A DNA stretch of 64,000 bases from assembly GCF_000317085.1 (NCBI RefSeq), contig NC_019702.1:1332394-1396393 (forward strand). Reading direction: 5' to 3'. This DNA comes from Synechococcus sp. PCC 7502 (GTDB taxonomy: Bacteria; Cyanobacteriota; Cyanobacteriia; Pseudanabaenales; Pseudanabaenaceae). Under the pieces are notes generated by a model. That model ran no database searches. It had not been told where the DNA came from and saw only the letters and a program-made list of their open reading frames with translations. This document shows positions 50,863-62,022 of the stretch, piece after piece (the first letter of the stretch is position 1; every line of letters starts with the position of its first letter). The position numbers and the translations under genes were made by a program.

Positions 50863-51318
50863 ATGTCTCTAGAAATCGGTAAACCTGCGCCAGACTTTAC
50901 TCTCCCTAGTGATCGCGGTGATATAACCCTTAGCCGCTATCAAGGTAAAACCAATGTCCTACTTGCCTTTTATCCAGCAGATTTTAGCCCCCTTTGCACT
51001 TTGGAAATGCAGTGCTTTGCCAATGATTGGACTAAATTTAGAGAGCTAGGTGCGGAAATTTTAGGTATAAATTCTGATCCCATAGAAAAACATAGTGAGT
51101 TCTCAAAAAAATTAGGTTTGGAGTTTCCCCTATTAAGCGATCGCTCCAAGGAAGTTGCGAAAAAGTATGGAGTCGATGATTTATTACTAGGAACAAAGCG
51201 TGCCTATTTCATTATTGATATTCAAGGCATCTTGAGATATAAACACATTGAGTTTTTACCAGTATTTAAGCGAGATGATACGGAACTACTGGTAGAACTG
51301 CGTAAATTAGCTACCTGA
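50863..51318 (+). CDS. Peroxiredoxin (AhpC/TSA family)
   Basis: The 151-residue thioredoxin-fold peroxidase has the N-terminal PAPDFTLPSDRGD and the peroxidatic Cys in FYPADFSPLCTLEMQCF. A second Cys lies six residues later, close to the spacing of PrxQ-type resolving cysteines but not identical. It probably reduces hydrogen peroxide or alkyl hydroperoxides. It is the last core gene before the accessory island. Confidence 0.9.
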   Translation: MSLEIGKPAPDFTLPSDRGDITLSRYQGKTNVLLAFYPADFSPLCTLEMQCFANDWTKFRELGAEILGINSDPIEKHSEFSKKLGLEFPLLSDRSKEVAKKYGVDDLLLGTKRAYFIIDIQGILRYKHIEFLPVFKRDDTELLVELRKLAT

Positions 51319-51365
51319 AGTGGACTGCACTAAACATCGGTAATGTGTCACATTTGTTGGAGAGT

Positions 51366-51851
51366 TCAAGAAGATTGAAATGAGAACTCATATTTGTTGA
51401 TAAACAAACCGATGACAATATCATGCATCACAATAGATTTAGAAAAGCAAATCGTCTTTCTGGCTAAACGCTTAATCCTCGTTCTCAAAGTTAGATGTTT
51501 ACGTTCAATCTTCTGAGTATTTTTCTTGCCGATCAAGTGAGTGTCAGGGTCAAGAATCCTTTCGTATGATCCCCAAGCATCAGTGAAAAAACGTTTGATG
51601 CCAAATGGTTTTAGCAGATTCACTAGCTTAACTAAGGCTTGGTCTTGATGTGGTGCTAAGACATAAGCTAAGAGTCCTCCAGTTACATGGTCAATGGCGT
51701 GCCATAACCATCTTTGTTGTTTTTTGCTGCCAACAAAACTCTACATCTCATCCATCTCTGCTTCTTCAACCGCATACAGGTCAACATCAAGTGTTTCTAA
51801 ATCAAGCTGTTCTAGCAGAGGATAGTTGACGGCTTCAATGTCTTCCTCTTT
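51366..51851 (-). pseudogene. insB: InsB transposase of IS1 copy A, nonsense mutation
   Basis: The frame meets insA at an A8 run (51849-51856) and reads DIEAVNYPLLEQLDLE, then DEM-stop-SFVGSKKQQRWLWHAID, GIKRFFTDAWGSYE and ERKHLTLRTRIKRLARKT. The stop (TAG at 51741-51743) replaces the Trp of the IS1 motif DE(L/M)WSFVG, probably a TGG to TAG change. The frame offset relative to insA is +1 rather than the -1 of active IS1 elements, so the A-run may also have changed length. Confidence 0.85.
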
Positions 51852-52122
51852 TTTTTAACTCCTTGATTACAGTATTGGGACTAATCTTCAATACTCGACC
51901 TGTATCCCTGATGCCACTGCCATTGATTGCCATCTCTGCAATTTGTTCTTCTTCTGGGCGATACCCTTGATAGGTGTAATCAAGAATAAGTGTCTTTCGC
52001 ATACAGTTCGTATTTAGGCAAATGTATCTTTTCTTGCTTGTGGCACTTTGTCCATGTCTGTGGATATCTACTCCTCCACAAGTTGCACATTCGAGTGCTT
52101 CAAATACCATCTTTTCTTTCAC
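51835..52122 (-). CDS. insA: InsA protein of IS1 copy A
   Basis: The 95-residue protein carries the CxxC zinc motif CATCGGVDIHRHGQ and C-terminal NGSGIRDTGRVLKISPNTVIKELKKRG, the helix-turn-helix of IS1 InsA. It ends after the A8 slippage run. On its own InsA binds the IS ends and represses. Confidence 0.85.
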   Translation of the reverse strand: MKEKMVFEALECATCGGVDIHRHGQSATSKKRYICLNTNCMRKTLILDYTYQGYRPEEEQIAEMAINGSGIRDTGRVLKISPNTVIKELKKRGRH

Positions 52123-52555
52123 TAACTATTTGCTACATACGGTATTATACCTTCCAACAATTGTGACACACTACCGTAAATTCTATCTACTAAAGGTAAA
52201 GCATATTGTAAAAGTTCTGTGGTGTCGTTGGAAGTTCTATTGATAGAGAAGCCGAATGTAGATCGTCTTTGAATGGACTGGAACGGGCAAATACTGGGAG
52301 GAAGATCGCTATCTGGTTTAGGTGGCAATGTTCCCGGAAGGGATAGGCTATTTTTTCTAAGTTCGATCTGCCTTAAGCCTTTGATTAGCTTCGACTATTA
52401 ATTGTTCAATTGGTTATGCCATAGTCCACGCTGCCTGAATAGTGGACTCAATTATAGAGCTTTATATACCTTTTATGCCGATTATTCCTGAGTAGTTTTA
52501 AGACAGGATGAAGCCCTGATTGAGTCTCAAGGCTGAATGTATTGGTCAGTATGTA

Positions 52556-52603
52556 AGCCCTCAATGGGATTTGAACCGATGACCTTCTCCTTACCAAGGA
52601 GAT
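52556..52603 (-). tRNA. 3' fragment of tRNA-Thr(GGU), likely attachment site
   Basis: On the minus strand the sequence gives a perfect 5-bp anticodon stem TCTCC/GGAGA with loop TTGGTAA (anticodon GGT), then a variable loop, a T arm with TTCAAAT, and the 3' acceptor half TGAGGGCT. The matching 5' half (D arm and acceptor 5') is not present upstream: the sequence there is unrelated. A 3' tRNA piece alone is the typical scar left by integration of an island into a tRNA gene. It is not a working tRNA. Confidence 0.75.
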
Positions 52604-52769
52604 TTGATATTCTTGATACTATTGCTGCGTCTTTATTTGAGGGTTTGGTCATCTTTTGTGCCCCCATTACGCCCCCATTTATGTCAAACATGCCTTGATT
52701 TTATCGAAATTGAGTCTATTAATTCTTTACATCTTGTTCAATTCAACCAGATTAGAGATCAGCAAATAA

Positions 52770-52901
52770 CTATTTAGCTTGTCTAAGGTAAATCCAAGGG
52801 CGTATCTGCTCAGATTGCCATACCCCAAACTTATTAGCGATCGCCACCTTCTCAGCATTTATTAAAACTGTCTTTTGGGTAGGGCATGAGCCATAAGTAT
52901 A
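52770..52901 (-). pseudogene. Truncated C-terminal coding fragment, unidentified
   Basis: A minus-strand open frame runs from the edge of the IS5 fragment to TAG 52770, giving 43 residues (ending FGVWQSEQIRPWIYLRQAK). The frame carries a HIP1 octamer and looks like real coding sequence cut at its 5' side by the IS. No family is recognised. Confidence 0.35.
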
Positions 52902-53133
52902 GAGGCTGTTTCATATCTCATGAGTAGCAATTCTTTTTAGCATCAAACGAATAAAGCAAAGATTGAGTTTAGCTGTAGCATTAACGAGAGTTCTCTCAAA
53001 GTTCTTAACTAAGATTTTGCATCTTTCAACCCAAGCATTTGACCTTTCAATTACCCACCTTGTCGGCACAACTACAAACCCAGACAGACCTTTTTCTACC
53101 TTCTGTTGCTTTGATACCTTAGGAGAAATTTCA
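52902..53133 (-). mobile_element. IS5-family element fragment (left end)
   Basis: This 232-bp segment is about 97% identical by eye to 61051-61270, the end of the full IS5 element. It includes the terminal repeat (GAGGCTGTTTCATATCTC) and the transposase C-terminus ending at 52911 (WVERCKILVKNFERT, LMLKRIATHEI). Unlike the full copy it keeps 16 bp that the full copy has lost. The rest of the element is gone where IS1 copy B begins. Confidence 0.85.
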
Positions 53134-53192
53134 GGTAGTGATCAAGAGGGCATGATAGATAAAAAAAGGGGTAAAACAAAATAGAAGTAACT

Positions 53193-53495
53193 ATGGAAGT
53201 AAAATGTCCTTACTGTGAAAGTGACCAGATAGTTAAGAATGGCATAACCCGTCACAAAAAACAAAACTACAAATGTAAAAAGTGTAATCGTCAATTTGTG
53301 ATTAATCCCAAAAACCAGCCAATAGCTGAATCCACAATTAAATTAGTCGATAATCTGCTGCTAGAACGTATATCCATGCGAGGGATTAAGCGTGTTGCCA
53401 AGGTGTCATTACAGTGGTTACAGAGTTATGTAAATGGTAAGTCTGTCAGTGTAGAGCCGCAAGTTAAGGTAATCCCTAAAAAAAAGCACGCCTGA
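53193..53495 (+). CDS. insA: InsA protein of IS1 copy B
   Basis: The 100-residue protein has CPYCESDQIVKNGITRHKKQ (zinc CxxC) and YKCKKCNRQFVINPKN (second CxxC), then a helix-turn-helix region (ERISMRGIKRVAKVSLQWLQSY). It ends after an A8 run (53478-53485) where a -1 shift leads into insB, as in IS1. Confidence 0.88.
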   Translation: MEVKCPYCESDQIVKNGITRHKKQNYKCKKCNRQFVINPKNQPIAESTIKLVDNLLLERISMRGIKRVAKVSLQWLQSYVNGKSVSVEPQVKVIPKKKHA

Positions 53496-53925
53496 CCATT
53501 GAGTGCGATGAACTATGGTCATTTGTAGGGGATAAAAAATGTAAGGTATGGATTTGGTTAGCAATTGACCGAAATACTAGAGAAATTGTTGGAGTGTTTG
53601 TTGGTAGTCGAGACCAAGAACAGCCTTGGGGTTATGGCAATCTTTACCAACCGTTTATCGACAATGTGCTGTTTGTTATACTGACTTCTGGCAAGCTTAT
53701 AGCTGTATTTTGCCTAAAAAACGCCATAAGGCTGTGGGCAAAGAGTCTGGACAGACTAATCATATTGAAAGGTTCAATTGTACTTTAAGGCAAAGAATTT
53801 CTCGCCTTGTTAGAAAAACTCTTTCTTTTTCTAAGAAATTAGAAAATCATATCGGTGCTATTTGGATATTTATCCATCACTACAATTCTGAAATTCACTC
53901 TAAGTTCTGCATCATGCCCTCTTGA
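53480..53925 (+). pseudogene. insB: InsB transposase of IS1 copy B, frameshifted
   Basis: In the -1 frame after the A8 run the protein reads TIECDELWSFVGDKKCKVWIW and AIDRNTREIVGVFVGSRDQ, so the first catalytic Asp region is present. Near 53605-53625 the frame breaks, and the rest (GLWQSLPTVYRQCAVCYTDFW, NHIERFNCTLRQRISRLV) continues in another frame, consistent with a 1-nt deletion. This second shift is not part of the IS1 mechanism, so the transposase is inactive. Confidence 0.85.
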
Positions 53926-54073
53926 TCACTACCGTAAATTTTTCATTTGCATTACCTGCTTGAAAGTATTATGAGTTTACTTATATTTGAATGATGCTGG
54001 AATTTATATGAGATTTTAACTATTTCAAAGAATTTGCAATTTCTAAATACAATTTCTAAATTATTGGGAAGAG

Positions 54074-54643
54074 ATGCTAACAATACAACAACGCCTCAAT
54101 AAACTAGATCTAGAATTACGGAAACCTCAGTTAATTGAGAATCGGGGTATTGGTAACGAGATTGGCTTTTATATTTTTGACTACGATCCAGAGCATGAGC
54201 CTGTTGTCCAAGAGTTTCTACCGACTTTGAAGGTTAACCTAAAGAGGATTGGTTTTAAAGTTACAGAATTTAATCTGTATCAGATTATTCTCAATATTTT
54301 GGAAGAAAGGCAGTTATTGCAGAAAGCGTTTGAGTTGGAGTCTAAGCAGGGTAGTTTAGGGCTTGAAAGATCTATAAGACCTTTAGTACGTCCAGAACAA
54401 GCGATCGCCTATATGCAAAAGCAGATTCAAAATGATGAAGATTTAATATTTATTACTGGGGTTGGGGAAAGTTACCCATTGATGCGATCGCATTTAATTT
54501 TAAACAATCTGCATTCCGTCTTGGATCGTAAGCCATTAGTGATGTTTTTCCCCGGAGCTTATGATGGCCAAGAGTTAAAGCTATTTAATGCTTTTAGGGA
54601 TGATAATTACTACAGAGCTTTCTCAATTGTGGGTAGATCGTAA
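54074..54643 (+). CDS. brxB: BREX system protein BrxB (DUF1788)
   Basis: The 189-residue protein has the DUF1788 pattern: RLNKLDLELRKPQLIENRGIGNEIGFYIFDYDPEHE at the start, EDLIFITGVGESYPLMRSHLILNNL, and the closing PLVMFFPGAYDGQELKLF followed by YYRAFSIVGR. BrxB is an essential small component of type 1 BREX phage defence. The start is ATG 54074, directly after a GGAAGAG site. It is intact. brxA, which normally precedes it, is missing; IS1 copy B lies 140 bp upstream. Confidence 0.9.
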   Translation: MLTIQQRLNKLDLELRKPQLIENRGIGNEIGFYIFDYDPEHEPVVQEFLPTLKVNLKRIGFKVTEFNLYQIILNILEERQLLQKAFELESKQGSLGLERSIRPLVRPEQAIAYMQKQIQNDEDLIFITGVGESYPLMRSHLILNNLHSVLDRKPLVMFFPGAYDGQELKLFNAFRDDNYYRAFSIVGRS

Positions 54644-54700
54644 GTTTTGATCGGCGATCCAAACTTTAATAACTAAACCAAAAACTAATCTGGTTAATGT

Positions 54701-57700
54701 ATGCAAATAGCTGAACTGTTCAATAAAGATATCAGACGTAATATCAACGGCGTAATTAAAGTTGGGTAACAGGATGACGCAAGCATACGCCAAGAATTAG
54801 AGGAGTATGTTGTTACCAAGGAGTTGGATAAACATTTCCGTACTTTTTTTGATCGTCATACTAGTTCTCTAGATACGCCTACAGACAAAATGGGTGTTTG
54901 GATTGCCGGATTTTTTGGGTCTGGGAAGTCCTACTTTTTGAAAATCTTGGCATATTTATTAGAAAATCGCTTAATCGATCATAAACATGCCATTGATTTT
55001 TTTGATAGCGATCGCATTGCCGATCCATTATTAAGAGCGAATATCCAGCGATCCGTAAATATATCTGCTGATGTAATTTTGTTTAATATTGACTCGAAGT
55101 CTGATGCCAGTGGCAAAACCCAAAAAGATAGTATTGTCAAAGTTTTTCAGAAGGTTTTTGATGAGAAATTAGGGTATTTTGGGGCTGTACCAGCGATCGC
55201 TGAATTTGAAAGACAGCTAGATCAAAAAGGTAGCTATATTCCTTTCAAAAATGCATTTCAGTCAATTCATGGCAAGTCTTGGGAAGCTGAACGGGATGCT
55301 TGGGGATTTTGCCAAGAGAATATTGCTGAAGCTTTGCATATGAGTTTAGGTATGGGGAAGGATGAGGCAAATCGGTTAATAGATCGTTTTAATCAGCAGA
55401 TAGCTTTGACTCCTGAAAAATTTGCCCAAACGGTAAAAAGCTATTTAGATCGTCAAGGCAAGCAACACCAAGTTCTATTTATGGTAGACGAGGTGGGACA
55501 GTATATTGGCGAAAATAGCGACCTTATGCTCAACCTGCAAACTGTGGTAGAAGATTTGGGGGTTTACTGTCATGGTCGGGCTTGGGTAGTTGTGACATCC
55601 CAAGAGGCTATGGATGAAATTACTAAGAATCGCCTTAAAGGTAATGATTTTTCTAAAATTGTCGGTCGCTTTGGTCGTCCTCTTAGCCTTTCTTCAGCAA
55701 ATACCGATGATGTGATTCGGCTGAGATTATTGGTTAAAACCGATGTAGCTGGTGTTTACCTAAAAGGACTATATGCCCAGAAGGAGGCTATTCTTAAAAA
55801 TCAAATTGCCTTTAGCCAAGACTGTGCGGAGTTGCCTGGGTATAGGAGTGCTGAAGAATTTGCCTCGACTTATCCATTTATTCCGTACCAATTTACCCTA
55901 CTGCAAAAGGTATTTGAACAAATTCGGGTGATCGGGGCAGCAGGTAAACATTTAGCAATGGGAGAGCGATCGCTGTTGGATGCCTTTCAAATTGCAGCAA
56001 AGTCTTTTGCCGAGCATGAGATCGGGATTTTAGTGCCGTTTCAGAGATTTTATGATGCTATTGAAGGATTTCTAGATACTTCAGTAAAACGGGCGATCGC
56101 ACAGGCTGAGGAAAATTCACAGTTACAACAGGGCGATCTTGACTTACTTAAGACTCTGTTTATGGTCAAGTACATTAAAGAGATTCGTGCCAATTTAGAT
56201 AACCTAACTACGCTTTCATTAAGTAGCATCGATCAGGATAAATTAGCTTTGCGAGATCGCGTCCAAGCATCGTTAGAAAGATTGGAAAAACAAACCTTAA
56301 TTCAACGGGCTGAAGACCTGTATGTATTTCTCACCCAAGAGGAACAAGACATCGGACGCGAAATTAAGAATACGCCTATCAATCCTAGTGATGTAACGGA
56401 AGAACTACAGAAATTGGTATGGGGGTCAATCTTTACTGATAAAAAATATAAGTACGATGCTCGTCACCAGTATGATTTCAACAAAAAATTAGACGATCAT
56501 GGACATCAGGTAAATGATATTAGTTTGCATATCGTTACCCCCTATGCCGATCGCTATCGAGAGCTACAAGCAGATGAAACTTGTTTGATGGCAACTGGAT
56601 CGGGGCAGGAAGTATTGGTCAGGTTGCCAGACGATCCGCGCCTTATTGATGAAGCAAATGAGTTAGTGCAAACGGCTGAATACATTCGCACTAAAAATAC
56701 TCGCAATCTTAGTGCTTCGATTCAAAGAATTTTAAGCGATAGAAGCGATCTAAATAGCAAGCGAAAAGATCGTTTGACAAGTCTGATGCGATCGCTAATT
56801 GCCGAAGCCGATGTATTTGCCTGTGGTAGTAAAGTGCAGGTGACGAGTAGGGAGGCGCGAACGGTTTTGAATGATGGAATGCGCTATTTAGTTGAAAATG
56901 TTTATACCAAGTTGGGCTATATCCAGAGTGGCTTTGATGATGAAGCTGGAATTACCAATGCCCTAATTAGCGATATTGAAGTGCAAGATTTGAGTGGCAA
57001 TCATGCTAATGCCGCCGCCCATAGTGACATTCAACTATACCTTGCCGATGAGGCGCGATCGCATAGGAGAGTGAGCATTCGCAATGTGCGGGACAAGTTT
57101 GCAGGTCGTCCCTATGGTTGGGCGGAGTTGGATACTCTAGGGGCGATCGCTGAGTTAGTTAATAAAGGTAAGGTAGAGTTACGTCGCGCCCAAGAAATAG
57201 TTAACACCAGGGAGAAAGGTTTGGTAGCGAAGTTACGCTTGAAGTCTGGACTCGATGAGTATTTAGTAAGACTAACGGAAGAAGTCGATCCTACCAGCTT
57301 TAAGATTGCAAGAGATTTAGCAAATGAGCTATTGGAGACTGCCCCACCCACTGATTTTCAAAAGCTGCGTGAAGAATATATTAAGGCGTTTAATGCTCAA
57401 ATTCAGAAGCTGCAAGGTTGGCTAACTGTGGCAGAACGAGATAGTTTACCTTTTATTGATAAGCTGCGATCGCATATTGAGTTATTAGGGAAATTGCAAA
57501 ATACTGATGGTGTAGCTATTTTCTTTAAGGCTATCAAGGGCGATCGCGAGGCTTTAGAAACATACATTGACGATCGCGATAAACTTACCTCTTTCTTTAC
57601 CAGCCAATTGGTTATTTTTCAGAAGGCGATCGCTGAACTCAAAACCCTAGAACCCGACCTGCAACATATTAAAGAAGATACTTTGCTGGCACGGGTAGAA

Positions 57701-58252
57701 ACAGTAAAACAAATTTTGGCAATGCCAGATCCGACAGGACGTATTCCTGAATTAATGATGTTATTAAAGCCGATTCAGGATAAAGTACGGGAAATTTTAC
57801 AGGCGCAGGTTAATCAGGTACAACAGCAAAGCCTCAGACTACGAGAGAAAGTTCAAGAATATGTGACTCAAGCTCATGGGGATGTATACGATCGCCTAAA
57901 TCTGTCAACTCTTGATGTGGATATAAATCGGATTGTAGTAACTGCTAACCAATCAAGCACTATTGATTCCGCGATCGCCCGTCAGAGTGAGTTGTCGGGT
58001 TTATATAACGTATTAGTGTCACGCCTTGATGCTGAAGCGATCACTATCCAAACCGCTCAACAACAGGAGATGGGTAATTCAGTTACTCTACCTGTAGTGC
58101 CTGTGGTGAAGCCAATCGCAGTAATTAAGACAACGCGATCGATAAGTAAGCCAATTTTAGAAACAGAGGCAGATGTGAAAGAGTATCTACAGGCTCTGGG
58201 TAGAGAAATTATGAAGAAAATTAAGCAAGGTAAACGAGTAAGATTAGAATAA
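54701..58252 (+). pseudogene. brxC: BREX ATPase BrxC with premature stop at codon 23
   Basis: The frame encodes 1183 residues plus one internal stop. It starts MQIAELFNKDIRRNINGVIKV and meets TAA at 54767-54769, then continues QDDASIRQELEEYVVTKELD. The stop probably replaced a Gln codon (CAA to TAA). The rest is open: P-loop GFFGSGKS at about residues 70-77, FMVDEVGQYIG, HLAMGERSLLDAF and helical regions to the C-terminus. BrxC is the large ATPase of BREX. The next start downstream is TTG 54824 with AAGGAG directly touching it, a poor arrangement; that product would lose 41 residues. The reading frame is otherwise free of damage, so the stop is recent. Confidence 0.88.
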
Positions 58253-58287
58253 TGGCTTGATTTTAGCTGGGAAAGGAGTAAATCAAA

Positions 58288-58332
58288 ATGGTAGAAACGA
58301 GTACTGCAATTACTGATTTCTCCTGTAATTAA
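58288..58332 (+). CDS. Tiny ORF with strong ribosome-binding site (14 residues)
   Basis: AAAGGAGTAAATCAAAATG is the best ribosome-binding site arrangement in the island, but the frame codes only MVETSTAITDFSCN. It may be the front of a gene lost here or a leader peptide. It lies 35 bp after brxC and 80 bp before the MNT gene. Confidence 0.25.
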   Translation: MVETSTAITDFSCN

Positions 58333-58413
58333 TAGGATTAAGTTTATTTCTTGTGGGTTAACAACAGTGGAAATAAGCGCTACTAGCTAAATATAGATTT
58401 TTGGGAATAGTGT

Positions 58414-58764
58414 ATGCAAAGCTATATTCTGACTGCAAGGGCAAAGGAACAGGCAAACAGTAAAGCCTTAGAGTATAGGCGATCGCAAGCAATGGAAGTG
58501 GCTCAGGAAGCAGCAAAAATTCTGCGTTCTCAGTTTGGGGCAACTCGTGTTGTATTATTTGGGTCAGTTTTGAGCGATCCTGCTAATTATGGTTTTCACC
58601 AAGGCTCGGACATTGATTTGGCAGTTTGGGGTATCAGCGATCGCTTATATTTTAAGGCTGTAGGCAAGGTGCAAGGACTGAGCGAATTTGCAATTGATGT
58701 GGTTGAGCCAGAGGATGCGCCATCCTATATTTTGGAAGCGATCGCGAAAGGAGTAGAGCTATGA
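58414..58764 (+). CDS. mntA: MNT-type nucleotidyltransferase antitoxin
   Basis: The 116-residue protein has a minimal nucleotidyltransferase domain: VVLFGSVLSD (GS), then SDIDLAVWG with the catalytic DxD. The spacing between GS and DID is 14 residues, four more than the usual GSX10DXD. MNT antitoxins inactivate their HEPN toxin partner by AMPylating its Tyr. The stop overlaps the HEPN start by 4 bp. It lies between brxC and pglX in a BREX locus. Confidence 0.85.
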   Translation: MQSYILTARAKEQANSKALEYRRSQAMEVAQEAAKILRSQFGATRVVLFGSVLSDPANYGFHQGSDIDLAVWGISDRLYFKAVGKVQGLSEFAIDVVEPEDAPSYILEAIAKGVEL

Positions 58765-59240
58765 GCCGTTATGGGGTATTAGTGGCTAGATTACAAAATG
58801 AACTGAGTAATGTTCGCAATGCTATGAGATCGGCTGTATCCCAGTCTGAGAAAGCTAAAAGAACGGAGGACAATGATTTTTGGCTGGCGGCAGCTTTTAG
58901 TTTGCAAAATTTCTATATGGGGACAGAGCGCATTTTTGAAGATGTTGCCAAGCAGATCGATAATGCCTTACCATCTGGGGCAAATTCCCATCGTGAGCTT
59001 TTAGAACAAATGGCGTTAAATATAGCTGATACTCGCCCACCTGTAATTTTGCAGGATACACTGGAACGCTTACAAGATTATCGAGGGTTTCGGCACGTAG
59101 CTATTCATCGGTATGGGTTTGAGCTTCGACCAGATCGCATTCGTGAGTTGGTGGAAATTCTCCCAGATACCGTAGAGATGTTGTCTAGAGACGTTAAGTC
59201 ATTTTGTGAGTTTTTGATAGCCCTAGAGAAAAATATATGA
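58761..59240 (+). CDS. hepT: HEPN toxin, HepT-like
   Basis: The 159-residue all-helical protein carries the HEPN RNase motif RX4HXY at residues 111-118 (R111, H116, Y118), exactly the form in which the MNT partner modifies the Tyr. Long helices (LVARLQNELSNVRNAMRSAV) and an ERIFEDVAKQID stretch fit the fold. Active HEPN toxins cut RNA. The gene overlaps mntA by 4 bp upstream and pglX by 4 bp downstream. Intact. Confidence 0.85.
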   Translation: MSRYGVLVARLQNELSNVRNAMRSAVSQSEKAKRTEDNDFWLAAAFSLQNFYMGTERIFEDVAKQIDNALPSGANSHRELLEQMALNIADTRPPVILQDTLERLQDYRGFRHVAIHRYGFELRPDRIRELVEILPDTVEMLSRDVKSFCEFLIALEKNI

Positions 59241-61050
59241 ACCGTACTGCCATCCGTAATTTTGCAACATGGGCGAGAACAACTTTGCTATTTCAGGTGC
59301 GATCGCGCCTTAATACCTATGGCATAAGCGAAAAGGGGATTGTAGAGCCACAGGTGGTGGTAGGGGGCATAACGGTAAATGGGCTGACTTTGAATGATGA
59401 TGAAGCAAAACATTACCAGCAGCTAAGATCGCAAATTGGCGGCAATATAAATATAGAAGTAATCGCCAAAATCACGGAAGAGATTGCCTATAAATGGTTT
59501 AACCGTTTGGTTGCCTTGCGCTTTATGGAGGTAAATGGCTATTTAAGCTATCGCTGTTTGAGTAGTAGCGATCCGCAGTTGGTCGATCCCGATTTGTTGC
59601 GCGAGGTGGGGGCGATCGCAGAAGGTGGAGATTTTGATGATCTAAATTTGGCAAAGCTGAGTGCATGGCGGGAGTCGGCGAGTAAGCAGCCCAATCCTGA
59701 TGAGTGGCTATATCGCCAGTTATTACTTTTACAGTGTGGGGCTTTGGCAGATGCGATCGCCTGTTTGTTTGACCGCAATCACGATTACACGATGTTATTT
59801 TTGCCGCCCAATTTGCTGAATAATGATTCGATTTTACGGCGATTGGTGGGTGATATTGCGGAAGAGGATTGGCAGGATATTGAGATTGTGGGCTGGCTCT
59901 ATCAGTTTTATATTTCTGAGAAAAAGGATGAGGTAATCGGCGCAAAGTCAAAGGTAAAAGCAGAGGATATTCCAGCCGCAACGCAATTGTTTACGCCCCA
60001 TTGGATTGTGCGTTATATGGTGGAAAATTCGTTGGGTCGATTGTGGCTAGAGTCCCATCCTGAGTCAAACTTAAGGGAGAAGATGCCCTATTATTTGGAG
60101 TCTGCTCCTAGTTCTGGAGGTGTAAAAACTGTGCTGGTTCCCCAAGACCTCACGGTATGCGATCCTGCCTGTGGAAGCGGTCACATTTTGGTTTATGCCT
60201 TTGATTTGTTATTTGAAATCTACAAAGAGCAGGGATATGTAGAGCGAGATATTCCAGCTTTGATTTTGGCGCATAATTTATTCGGTTTGGATATTGATAA
60301 TCGTGCCGTGCAGTTGGCTAGTTTTGCGGTATTGATGAAGGCGAGGGCAAAGAATTCACGTTTTTTACGGAAGGTGCCGAAGTTAAATATTGTGTGGGTG
60401 CGGCATACGCGGCAGTTTTTTAGTGAGAAGGAAATTGCAAAAACCGAACAAGTAACCATTGTGAGTCATCAAATGTCTTTGGCGGGGATGGGTTTGGTCG
60501 ACCAGTTACCTTTGGGATATGTGGCTCCAACTAAAAAGACTTCGTTTGTTTCGTTTTTAACCGATCAACGTTCTATTTCTAATTCTCTTGTGGCTCTGTT
60601 ATCTGCTTTTGTGGATGCGGATAATTTGGGTAGTTTGATCGTGCCGCCTGTATTTAATGCGGATCGAATTTATGCGGAATTGAATGAACTGGAAGGGAAG
60701 TTTTCGCTGTTTGCGGATTTTGCGGTGTTGCGAGATGTGGTGAGGTAGGGAGACAGTATTTAGCGGTGGTAGCGAATCCTCCTTACATGGGAAGTAAGTC
60801 TTTTAATGACAAATTAAATGCTTTTATCGTTAGCAATTACAAAAAAGGTAAGTCTGACCTATTCGCTGCTTTTATTGAACGCTTACTACAAATGATGGAT
60901 TCATCTGGTCTAACAGCAATGGTGGTAATGCAGTCTTGGATGTTTTTAAGTAGCTATGAAGATTTACGGACTGATTTTTTAAAGAATTACGAGATTCCTT
61001 CATTAGTTCACATGGATAATTAAGTTATCCAAATTTTAAAGGAGCGTATA
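59237..61050 (+). pseudogene. pglX: BREX methyltransferase PglX, frameshifted and truncated
   Basis: The N-terminal 503 residues are open and show NRTAIRNFATWARTTLLFQVR, LVALRFMEVNGYL, WLYQFYISEKKDE, LFTPHWIVRYMVENSLGRLW, and the SAM motif CDPACGSGHIL followed by FGLDIDNRAVQLASFAV. The frame stops at 60746, while the catalytic NPPY lies at 60775-60786 in the frame two bases on (RQYLAVVANPPYMGSKSF), which fits a 1-nt deletion just before it. The second frame stops at 61021, and the sequence is cut at 61050 by an IS5 element. Normal PglX is about 1200 residues, so about half is gone. PglX methylates host DNA for BREX self-recognition. Confidence 0.9.
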
Positions 61051-61059
61051 GAGCCTGTT

Positions 61060-61594
61060 TCATATCTCATGAGTAGCAATTCTTTTTAGCATCAAGCGAA
61101 TAAAGCAAAGATTGAGTTTAGCTGTAGCATTAACGAGAGTTCTCTCAAAGTTCTTAACTAAGATTTTGCATCTTTCAACCCAAGTACCCACCTTGTCGGC
61201 ACAACTACAAACCCAGACAGACCTTTTTCTGCCTTCTGTTGCTTTGATACCTTAGGAGAAATTTCAAACCTAATCTTAGTCATAATCTCAGGATAAACCT
61301 TCTGTAAATCAGTCGTCAATTTTTCGATATGATAACCACTATCCAGCAATATCGTAGTTAGCGTAATGTCATCTGGCTTCGATTTGAAGTAATCAATGTT
61401 AATCGTTAACATTTCAATCAGTCCTTGGTCATCTGATACATTTGCTCTTGTTAAATACCCAGAGTGTCAACGGCTAAATGTCTTTTGATCCCGTTAGTTG
61501 CTTTGTAGGAGCAGAAGCCCTTGGATTCTATACTTGCATTACAAGTATTTTTCACTGCTTGTGAGTCAATGATGATTAAAGTTGTCCATTTTGA
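61060..61594 (-). pseudogene. IS5 transposase ORF B, broken by two deletions
   Basis: After the A8 run the frame reads SKWTTLIIIDSQAVKNTCNA and HLAVDTLGI, then stops where a short deletion removed bases present in homologs. The next part (LTRANVSDDQGLIEMLT, LLDSGYHIEKL) is in another frame, and a 16-bp deletion near 61180, seen by comparing with the 52902-53133 fragment, breaks the frame again before the end (TLVNATAKLNLCF). The DDE domain is thus not expressed. Confidence 0.85.
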
Positions 61595-61877
61595 TTTTTT
61601 TTGACTGTTCACGGGCTGTTGAATGCAAAGCTTCCATAATCGCAGTAAATGTACCTGTATCTTTCCACTCCTTGTAGTATCGATACACTGTAGAGAATGG
61701 TGGTAAGTCTCGGGGCATATCTCGCCAATTACAACCGTTTTTGAGTTGGTAGAGTATGCCGTCTAAAATTTGTCTTTTTGTCCAAGTTGGCGGTCTAGTT
61801 TGCTTTTTCTTTGGGAGCAATGGTTCTATAATTTCCCATTCTTTATCTGTTAGGCTACTTGAGTATGGATTTAGCAT
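61566..61877 (-). CDS. IS5 transposase ORF A
   Basis: The 103-residue protein reads LTDKEWEIIEPLLPKKKQTR, KRQILDGILYQLKNGCNWRDMP and VYRYYKEWKDTGTF, the N-terminal domain of IS5-family transposases (DUF4096-type). It ends at the A8 run. ATG start at 61877. Confidence 0.88.
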   Translation of the reverse strand: MLNPYSSSLTDKEWEIIEPLLPKKKQTRPPTWTKRQILDGILYQLKNGCNWRDMPRDLPPFSTVYRYYKEWKDTGTFTAIMEALHSTAREQSKKIKMDNFNHH

Positions 61878-62022
61878 TTTCTAAGCATCATAAATCTTGC
61901 TCATAATAGATATGAAACAGGCTCTATAAAAAGTAAGCTTAGGCTTAGCAAGAATATAAAAATATTTTAGCTATCCCATTCAAAATGCTATAGTAAAGAT
62001 TTGAGTTTGCTAAATTAAAGTT

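Follow-up and report, generated by a model that had tools for sequence, protein, structure and literature searches.

A tRNA-Thr(GGU) 3′ half in Synechococcus sp. PCC 7502 as a probable attachment-site scar of tRNA-targeting tyrosine-recombinase elements

Introduction

Genomic islands and prophages that are inserted into the 3′ ends of tRNA genes by tyrosine recombinases are a known kind of feature, as described in the excerpted text of a review (PMC2704930). A tRNA 3′ half was observed in a window (the whole stretch of DNA that was analysed, 64 kb in length) from Synechococcus sp. PCC 7502, a strain placed in Pseudanabaenales in the excerpt of PMC12961181, and the question raised by this locus is how half of a tRNA-Thr(GGU) gene came to stand there and what still marks its origin. 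A first-pass annotation had read it as the scar of an island integration. In the following, window positions are given as plain numbers, and genome positions carry the contig prefix C3.

Results

The tRNA-Thr(GGU) 3′ Half and Its Intact Partner

The fragment, which we describe as an att core, occupies 52553..52603 on the minus strand and contains the anticodon stem-loop, the variable region, the T arm with one pair broken and the 3′ acceptor strand, together with 3 bp beyond the gene. In the strain's own genome it is identical in 50 of 51 bases (98%, E 1e-18) to C3:1167772-1167822, the common stretch reaching from the anticodon stem as far as 3 bp outside the 3′ end of tRNA-Thr. The intact tRNA-Thr(GGU) gene was located by ARAGORN at C3:1167748-1167819, and window positions 52556-52603 (minus strand) correspond to its nucleotides 25-72. 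The presence of a tRNA-Thr(GGU) 3′ half, and that of a full gene elsewhere in the genome, are thereby confirmed; the 48 bp first reported are indeed tRNA, but the stretch common to both places is 51 bp, from 52553 to 52603. The sole difference between the two copies lies in the T stem, where the intact gene reads ATGGG/CCCAT and the fragment ATCGG/CCCAT, and because this one base change breaks a pair, the T arm is not perfect, as it had been called. No tRNA was found by ARAGORN in the 64-kb window, so the D arm and the 5′ half are missing from the fragment, in agreement with the first reading.

A 22-bp pattern of the T arm and acceptor, with ≤3 mismatches allowed, was found at two places in the 3.58-Mb genome, while the reversed control pattern was found at none, indicating that the match is not due to chance. 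No third copy of the 51-bp stretch was detected in the genome, either by similarity search or with the 22-bp pattern (≤3 mismatches). Both outcomes that had been named as speaking against a scar, namely copies at many unrelated sites or the lack of an intact gene, are thus excluded, with only two copies found and one of them an intact gene. In contrast to the simple picture of two copies that border one island, they lie 217 kb apart on opposite strands and do not flank anything as direct repeats, and the fragment is therefore classed as a scar only and not as the end of a present island.

The 5′ Flank of the Fragment

Two copies of the motif TGGGGGC are situated on the 5′ side of the core, at 52660..52666 and 52671..52677 (both on the minus strand), with their starts 63 bp and 74 bp from the core and 11 bp from each other. 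A pair with this spacing and ≤1 mismatch occurs once in the strain's genome, at the fragment, and within 519 kb both strands together contain 57 occurrences of the single motif and one of the exact spaced pair. A blind test for any repeat pair in the 150-bp 5′ flank of the fragment gave a P of about 0.06, which is weaker than the motif-specific result. The ends of the control elements described below are built alike, and the TGGGGGC repeats are putative arm-type sites of an integrase.

On the same side, which is the element side, what remains of a staphylococcal-nuclease-like (SNase) gene, a piece of its 3′ end, was observed at 52811..52895 (minus strand). Over 85 bp its DNA is 83.5% identical to L140:12642-12726, where an intact SNase gene that adjoins an integrase has its 3′ end, and both of these genes lie in a prophage-like stretch at C3:1490-1509 kb. 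This stretch (L140, C3:1490000-1509000) comprises two prophage-like units with three integrases, adjoining 3′ pieces of a Pro-like tRNA, and these Pro-like fragments were left out of the scoring of repeat layouts.

A short frame starting MTKPSNKDAA had been put forward as the possible start of an integrase-linked gene on this side. The frame (52527..52652, minus strand, 41 aa) is a read-through of the att core, as 15 of its 41 residues (residues 19-33) are tRNA in frame, and the intact tRNA gives LLGKEKVMGSNPIEG in that frame. When the flank coding for the start of the frame was searched, the same-genus and same-family genomes gave no match at E≤1e-3, and the 57 relatives together only 26 bp in one genome (G045). 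MTKPSNKDAA was rejected as a gene on these two grounds, and as an integrase-linked start it fails in addition because the integrase relic is on the other side of the fragment.

Comparison with Elements of Known Integrase

A scan of the genome contigs returned 12 loci, mostly integrases at other tRNAs, 8 of the 12 being examined. The element at tRNA-Asp(GUC) (C3:1410519-1426858, 16.3 kb) has a perfect 59-bp repeat of the tRNA 3′ part on the same strand and an intact integrase open reading frame after the tRNA, with the repeat TTAGGAC at the integrase start and at -90/-79 of the far copy, and TTAGGAA at -69. The corresponding island (L139, C3:1409000-1428900) harbors type I restriction genes, named by reading ORFs, and IS5 copies. 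An integrase at C3:1411307, 26 kb away from the scar, was considered as its partner and ruled out, since it belongs to this tRNA-Asp element. The element at tRNA-Ala(GGC) (C3:2273880-2286966, 13 kb) has a perfect 55-bp repeat and an integrase with one stop, and carries ACCCCG at the integrase start and at -88/-76 of the far copy. Beyond this far copy stands another, decayed start of that integrase type (L189/L190: C3:2286876-2286966, 2273880-2273934), and the arrangement is a tandem junction.

Both elements resemble the window scar in that the att core is taken from the tRNA 3′ half and a repeat pair precedes the far copy (69-90 bp), and the tRNA-Ala far copy has a decayed integrase start on its 3′ side, as the window scar probably does; unlike the window scar, both have kept their direct-repeat order. 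A third element was found in G020 (Pseudanabaena 'Roaring Creek'), a genome of the same family as the source genome, where an intact integrase stands directly after tRNA-Thr with repeats at 68/80 bp, and the corresponding repeats of a tRNA-Thr fragment, which lies on a different contig, are at -80/-68. This tRNA-Thr(GGU) element (L038/L142, L067) has the same tRNA and the same paired-repeat layout at both ends as the window, but its integrase is intact and its repeat is TGGGTAG as against TGGGGGC. The layout of the window repeats, at -74/-63 by the same count, was therefore displayed by all three examined element ends with a known integrase, two in the strain's own genome and one in G020. At a fourth fragment, that of tRNA-Thr in G008, which falls outside the set with a known integrase, no clear repeat pair was observed.

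tRNA-Thr(GGU) as a Target in Related Genomes

Elements or scars at tRNA-Thr(GGU) were detected in the strain's own genome, in the same-genus genome G001, and in G005, G020 and G008. True tRNA-Thr 3′ fragments were found in G008 and G020 among the 57 relatives searched; the piece in G011, whose first base is base 5 of the contig, was left out of this count as it could be an intact gene truncated by the contig edge. In G001 a decayed integrase follows tRNA-Thr directly, and its start carries TGGGGGC at 68 bp from the core. In the strain's own genome and G005 the genes after the tRNA encode a small protein, with 36% identity between the two genomes, and a cytosine methyltransferase; this pair directly after tRNA-Thr(GGU) thus occurs in two genera (L018 160-1196, L051 8079-9039). 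The small protein had no match in Pfam or PHROGs, and is taken for a putative DNA-binding, excisionase-like protein.

The repeat that now stands beside the strain's own intact tRNA-Thr is a CCTACC pair at +25/+36. As CCTACC differs from TGGGGGC, the scar and the sequence now behind tRNA-Thr are not a matching pair, and two different elements account for this better than a single island that was split. An empty or intact version of the arrangement was not found in any relative, the gene order being too scrambled even within the genus.

The Neighbourhood and the Distance Between the Copies

The neighbours of the fragment are a peroxiredoxin-like gene (50863-51318) and, on the other side, a BREX remnant, with two insertion elements that we take to be IS1-like and the broken end of a presumed IS5-type element intervening. 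The first IS1-like element (51338..52176, minus strand) cuts the region on the 3′ side of the fragment and has terminal inverted repeats at 51338-51361 and 52153-52176 and transposase-like ORFs at 51366-51623 and 51835-52122. The cut-off IS5-type end (52898..53122), 92% identical to 61046-61266, is interrupted by the second IS1-like element (53123..53944, plus strand; inverted repeats 53123-53156 and 53911-53944; ORFs 53193-53495 and 53626-53925). The BREX remnant, recognised by PADLOC and Pfam matches, extends over 54074..61046 on the plus strand and comprises brxB (54074-54643), brxC (54824-58252), a nucleotidyltransferase (58414-58764), a HepT-like gene (58761-59240) and pglX (59237-61046). 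A complete BREX core set includes a whole pglX and pglZ, while 54074-61046 holds only brxB, brxC and the 5′ part of pglX, which is cut by the IS5-type element at about half its length, the profile being covered only to position 589 of 1174. The rest of pglX was detected neither next to the tRNA island nor at any other place in the genome, where only weak matches at two other genes were obtained. The remnant is possibly cargo of the same island as the scar.

The element that cuts pglX is a full IS5-type copy (61047..61928, minus strand; C3:1393440-1394321), and is 96.6% identical over 915 aligned columns to a copy in opposite orientation in or beside the tRNA-Thr island (C3:1177601-1178498). 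An inversion between these two copies would yield the present strand and side of the fragment, and we infer that the scar came to its present place, 217 kb away on the other strand, in this manner, with the IS5-type copies as candidate breakpoints. The same element has 10 full-length and 4 partial copies in 519 kb (C3:990001-1509000), so its occurrence at both places is weak evidence. The IS5 target duplications, all of whose ends read TATA, were uninformative on the inversion, as were GC skew and gene-strand bias over the 519 kb and the synteny of DedA, Der and peroxiredoxin in relatives, which have other gene orders.

These observations also bear on a different reading, according to which there was one composite island at tRNA-Thr, holding both the methyltransferase genes and the BREX block, which was split when an IS5 copy inside it recombined with one 217 kb away and the far att was carried off inverted. 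The element side of the fragment does face the BREX block and its outer side the peroxiredoxin gene, and the full IS5 copies at the two places have opposite orientations. However, the many full IS5-type copies weaken the argument, the lost pglX half was not found, and the predicted neighbours DedA/Der and tRNA-Thr/peroxiredoxin do not adjoin in G001, where the order differs at every such place. The arm repeats at the two ends also differ, and we regard a single split island as possible but less likely than not.

The 3′ Flank of the Fragment

On the 3′ side, about 140 bp from the core, the probable N-terminal part, decayed and frameshifted, of an L013/L014-type tyrosine recombinase was detected by tblastn at 52215..52410 (minus strand). 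When L013 and L014 were searched against the whole 64-kb window, both matched best at 52215-52370 (minus strand), with E values of 0.005 and 0.16 as against 1.4 and 1.5 for the next best, whereas the other ten integrase queries gave no notable match at this site. The relic pieces are in collinear order in different frames, with IEQLIVEANQRLKA (52410-52369) followed by QIELRKNSLSLPGTLPPKPDS (52370-52308), and their position and direction are as expected for an integrase that follows the 3′ end of a tRNA. The similarity is weak, and with moderate confidence we regard 52215-52410 as a short integrase relic. The integrase suspected beside the fragment may thus be present in this decayed form, though not on the MTKPSNKDAA side. 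The interval from the core to the relic contained no TGGGGGC repeat, so the two sides resemble those of different integrase types, and a right end on the 5′ side together with a left end on the 3′ side suggests that the fragment is probably the junction of two tandem elements.

A simpler history would need only a single element at tRNA-Thr, with the fragment as its attR, ordinary chromosome on the 3′ side, and an integrase similarity that is due to chance or to an unrelated relic. The arms and the nuclease-gene end on the 5′ side would suffice for it, and it gains from the low similarity of the relic, but two queries that both pick exactly this site out of 64 kb, in collinear pieces and in the expected orientation, argue against coincidence, and the strain's own tRNA-Ala scar has the same arrangement with a clear relic. 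We therefore consider the single element unlikely. The order of arms, core and integrase would also fit an unused attP of a circular element, in which a right end, the core and a left end with its integrase entered the chromosome through IS recombination and not through the integrase, and the region is indeed bounded by IS1-like and IS5-like copies; since the two sides look like different integrase types, with no TGGGGGC between core and relic, this is improbable.

Discussion

The tRNA-Thr(GGU) fragment is best explained as the attachment-site scar of tRNA-targeting tyrosine-recombinase elements, probably a tandem junction and moved by a likely inversion, a reading to which we assign a probability of roughly 0.8. 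In this history, elements carrying an integrase would have inserted by recombination within the 3′ half of tRNA-Thr(GGU). As each of them would supply a copy of this half, the tRNA gene would remain complete at one end, with a surplus 3′ half at the distal end. On its 5′ side the surplus half would have the right end of one element, with the nuclease-gene end and the paired TGGGGGC putative arm sites, and on its 3′ side the left end of another, with the decayed integrase. Later decay would have broken the integrase, added the IS1-like and IS5-like insertions and let the scar drift by one base, and the scar would have been moved 217 kb onto the other strand, most likely by inversion, with IS5 copies as candidate agents. 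The island-scar interpretation of the first-pass annotation is supported in part, by the intact gene, the paired repeats, the nuclease-gene end and the decayed integrase; its reading of the MTKPSNKDAA frame is not supported, and the copies do not border one island as direct repeats. An accidental partial duplication of the tRNA by gene conversion or IS capture, for which the IS copies all around could be cited, is very improbable, because the end points resemble the att cores at the strain's own tRNA-Asp and tRNA-Ala and the distance of the paired repeats is close to that in the three control elements.

The scar belongs to a well-known kind of genome scar, and in this case a decayed integrase and paired repeats are still recognisable beside it. 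Like the tRNA islands in the excerpted text of PMC2704930, it shows a duplicated tRNA 3′ end and IS copies, together with a probable integrase by the tRNA and possible accessory cargo, and differs from those in that excerpt in its decayed integrase and in tRNA copies that are opposite and 217 kb apart.

We tentatively propose, as a wider idea that may well prove wrong, that the integrases of this cyanobacterial family bear a paired repeat which coincides with or closely precedes their start codon and recurs 63-90 bp before the far att, that the repeat serves as a lineage label, that the window scar was made by a TGGGGGC-type integrase like that of G001, and that tandem stacking and IS-driven inversion scattered one defence island over 217 kb. 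If the lineage label were true, an orphan tRNA scar could be assigned to its integrase type although the integrase itself has been lost. The match between paired repeats and an integrase type, together with a likely tandem junction, is a modest extra detail that will not surprise a specialist, though it suggests that att scars can be validated by their paired repeats once the integrase is gone. The BREX remnant adjoining the scar fits the transport of defence genes on islands integrated at tRNA genes, and tRNA-Thr(GGU) can be added to the sites at which elements have integrated repeatedly in this cyanobacterial family.
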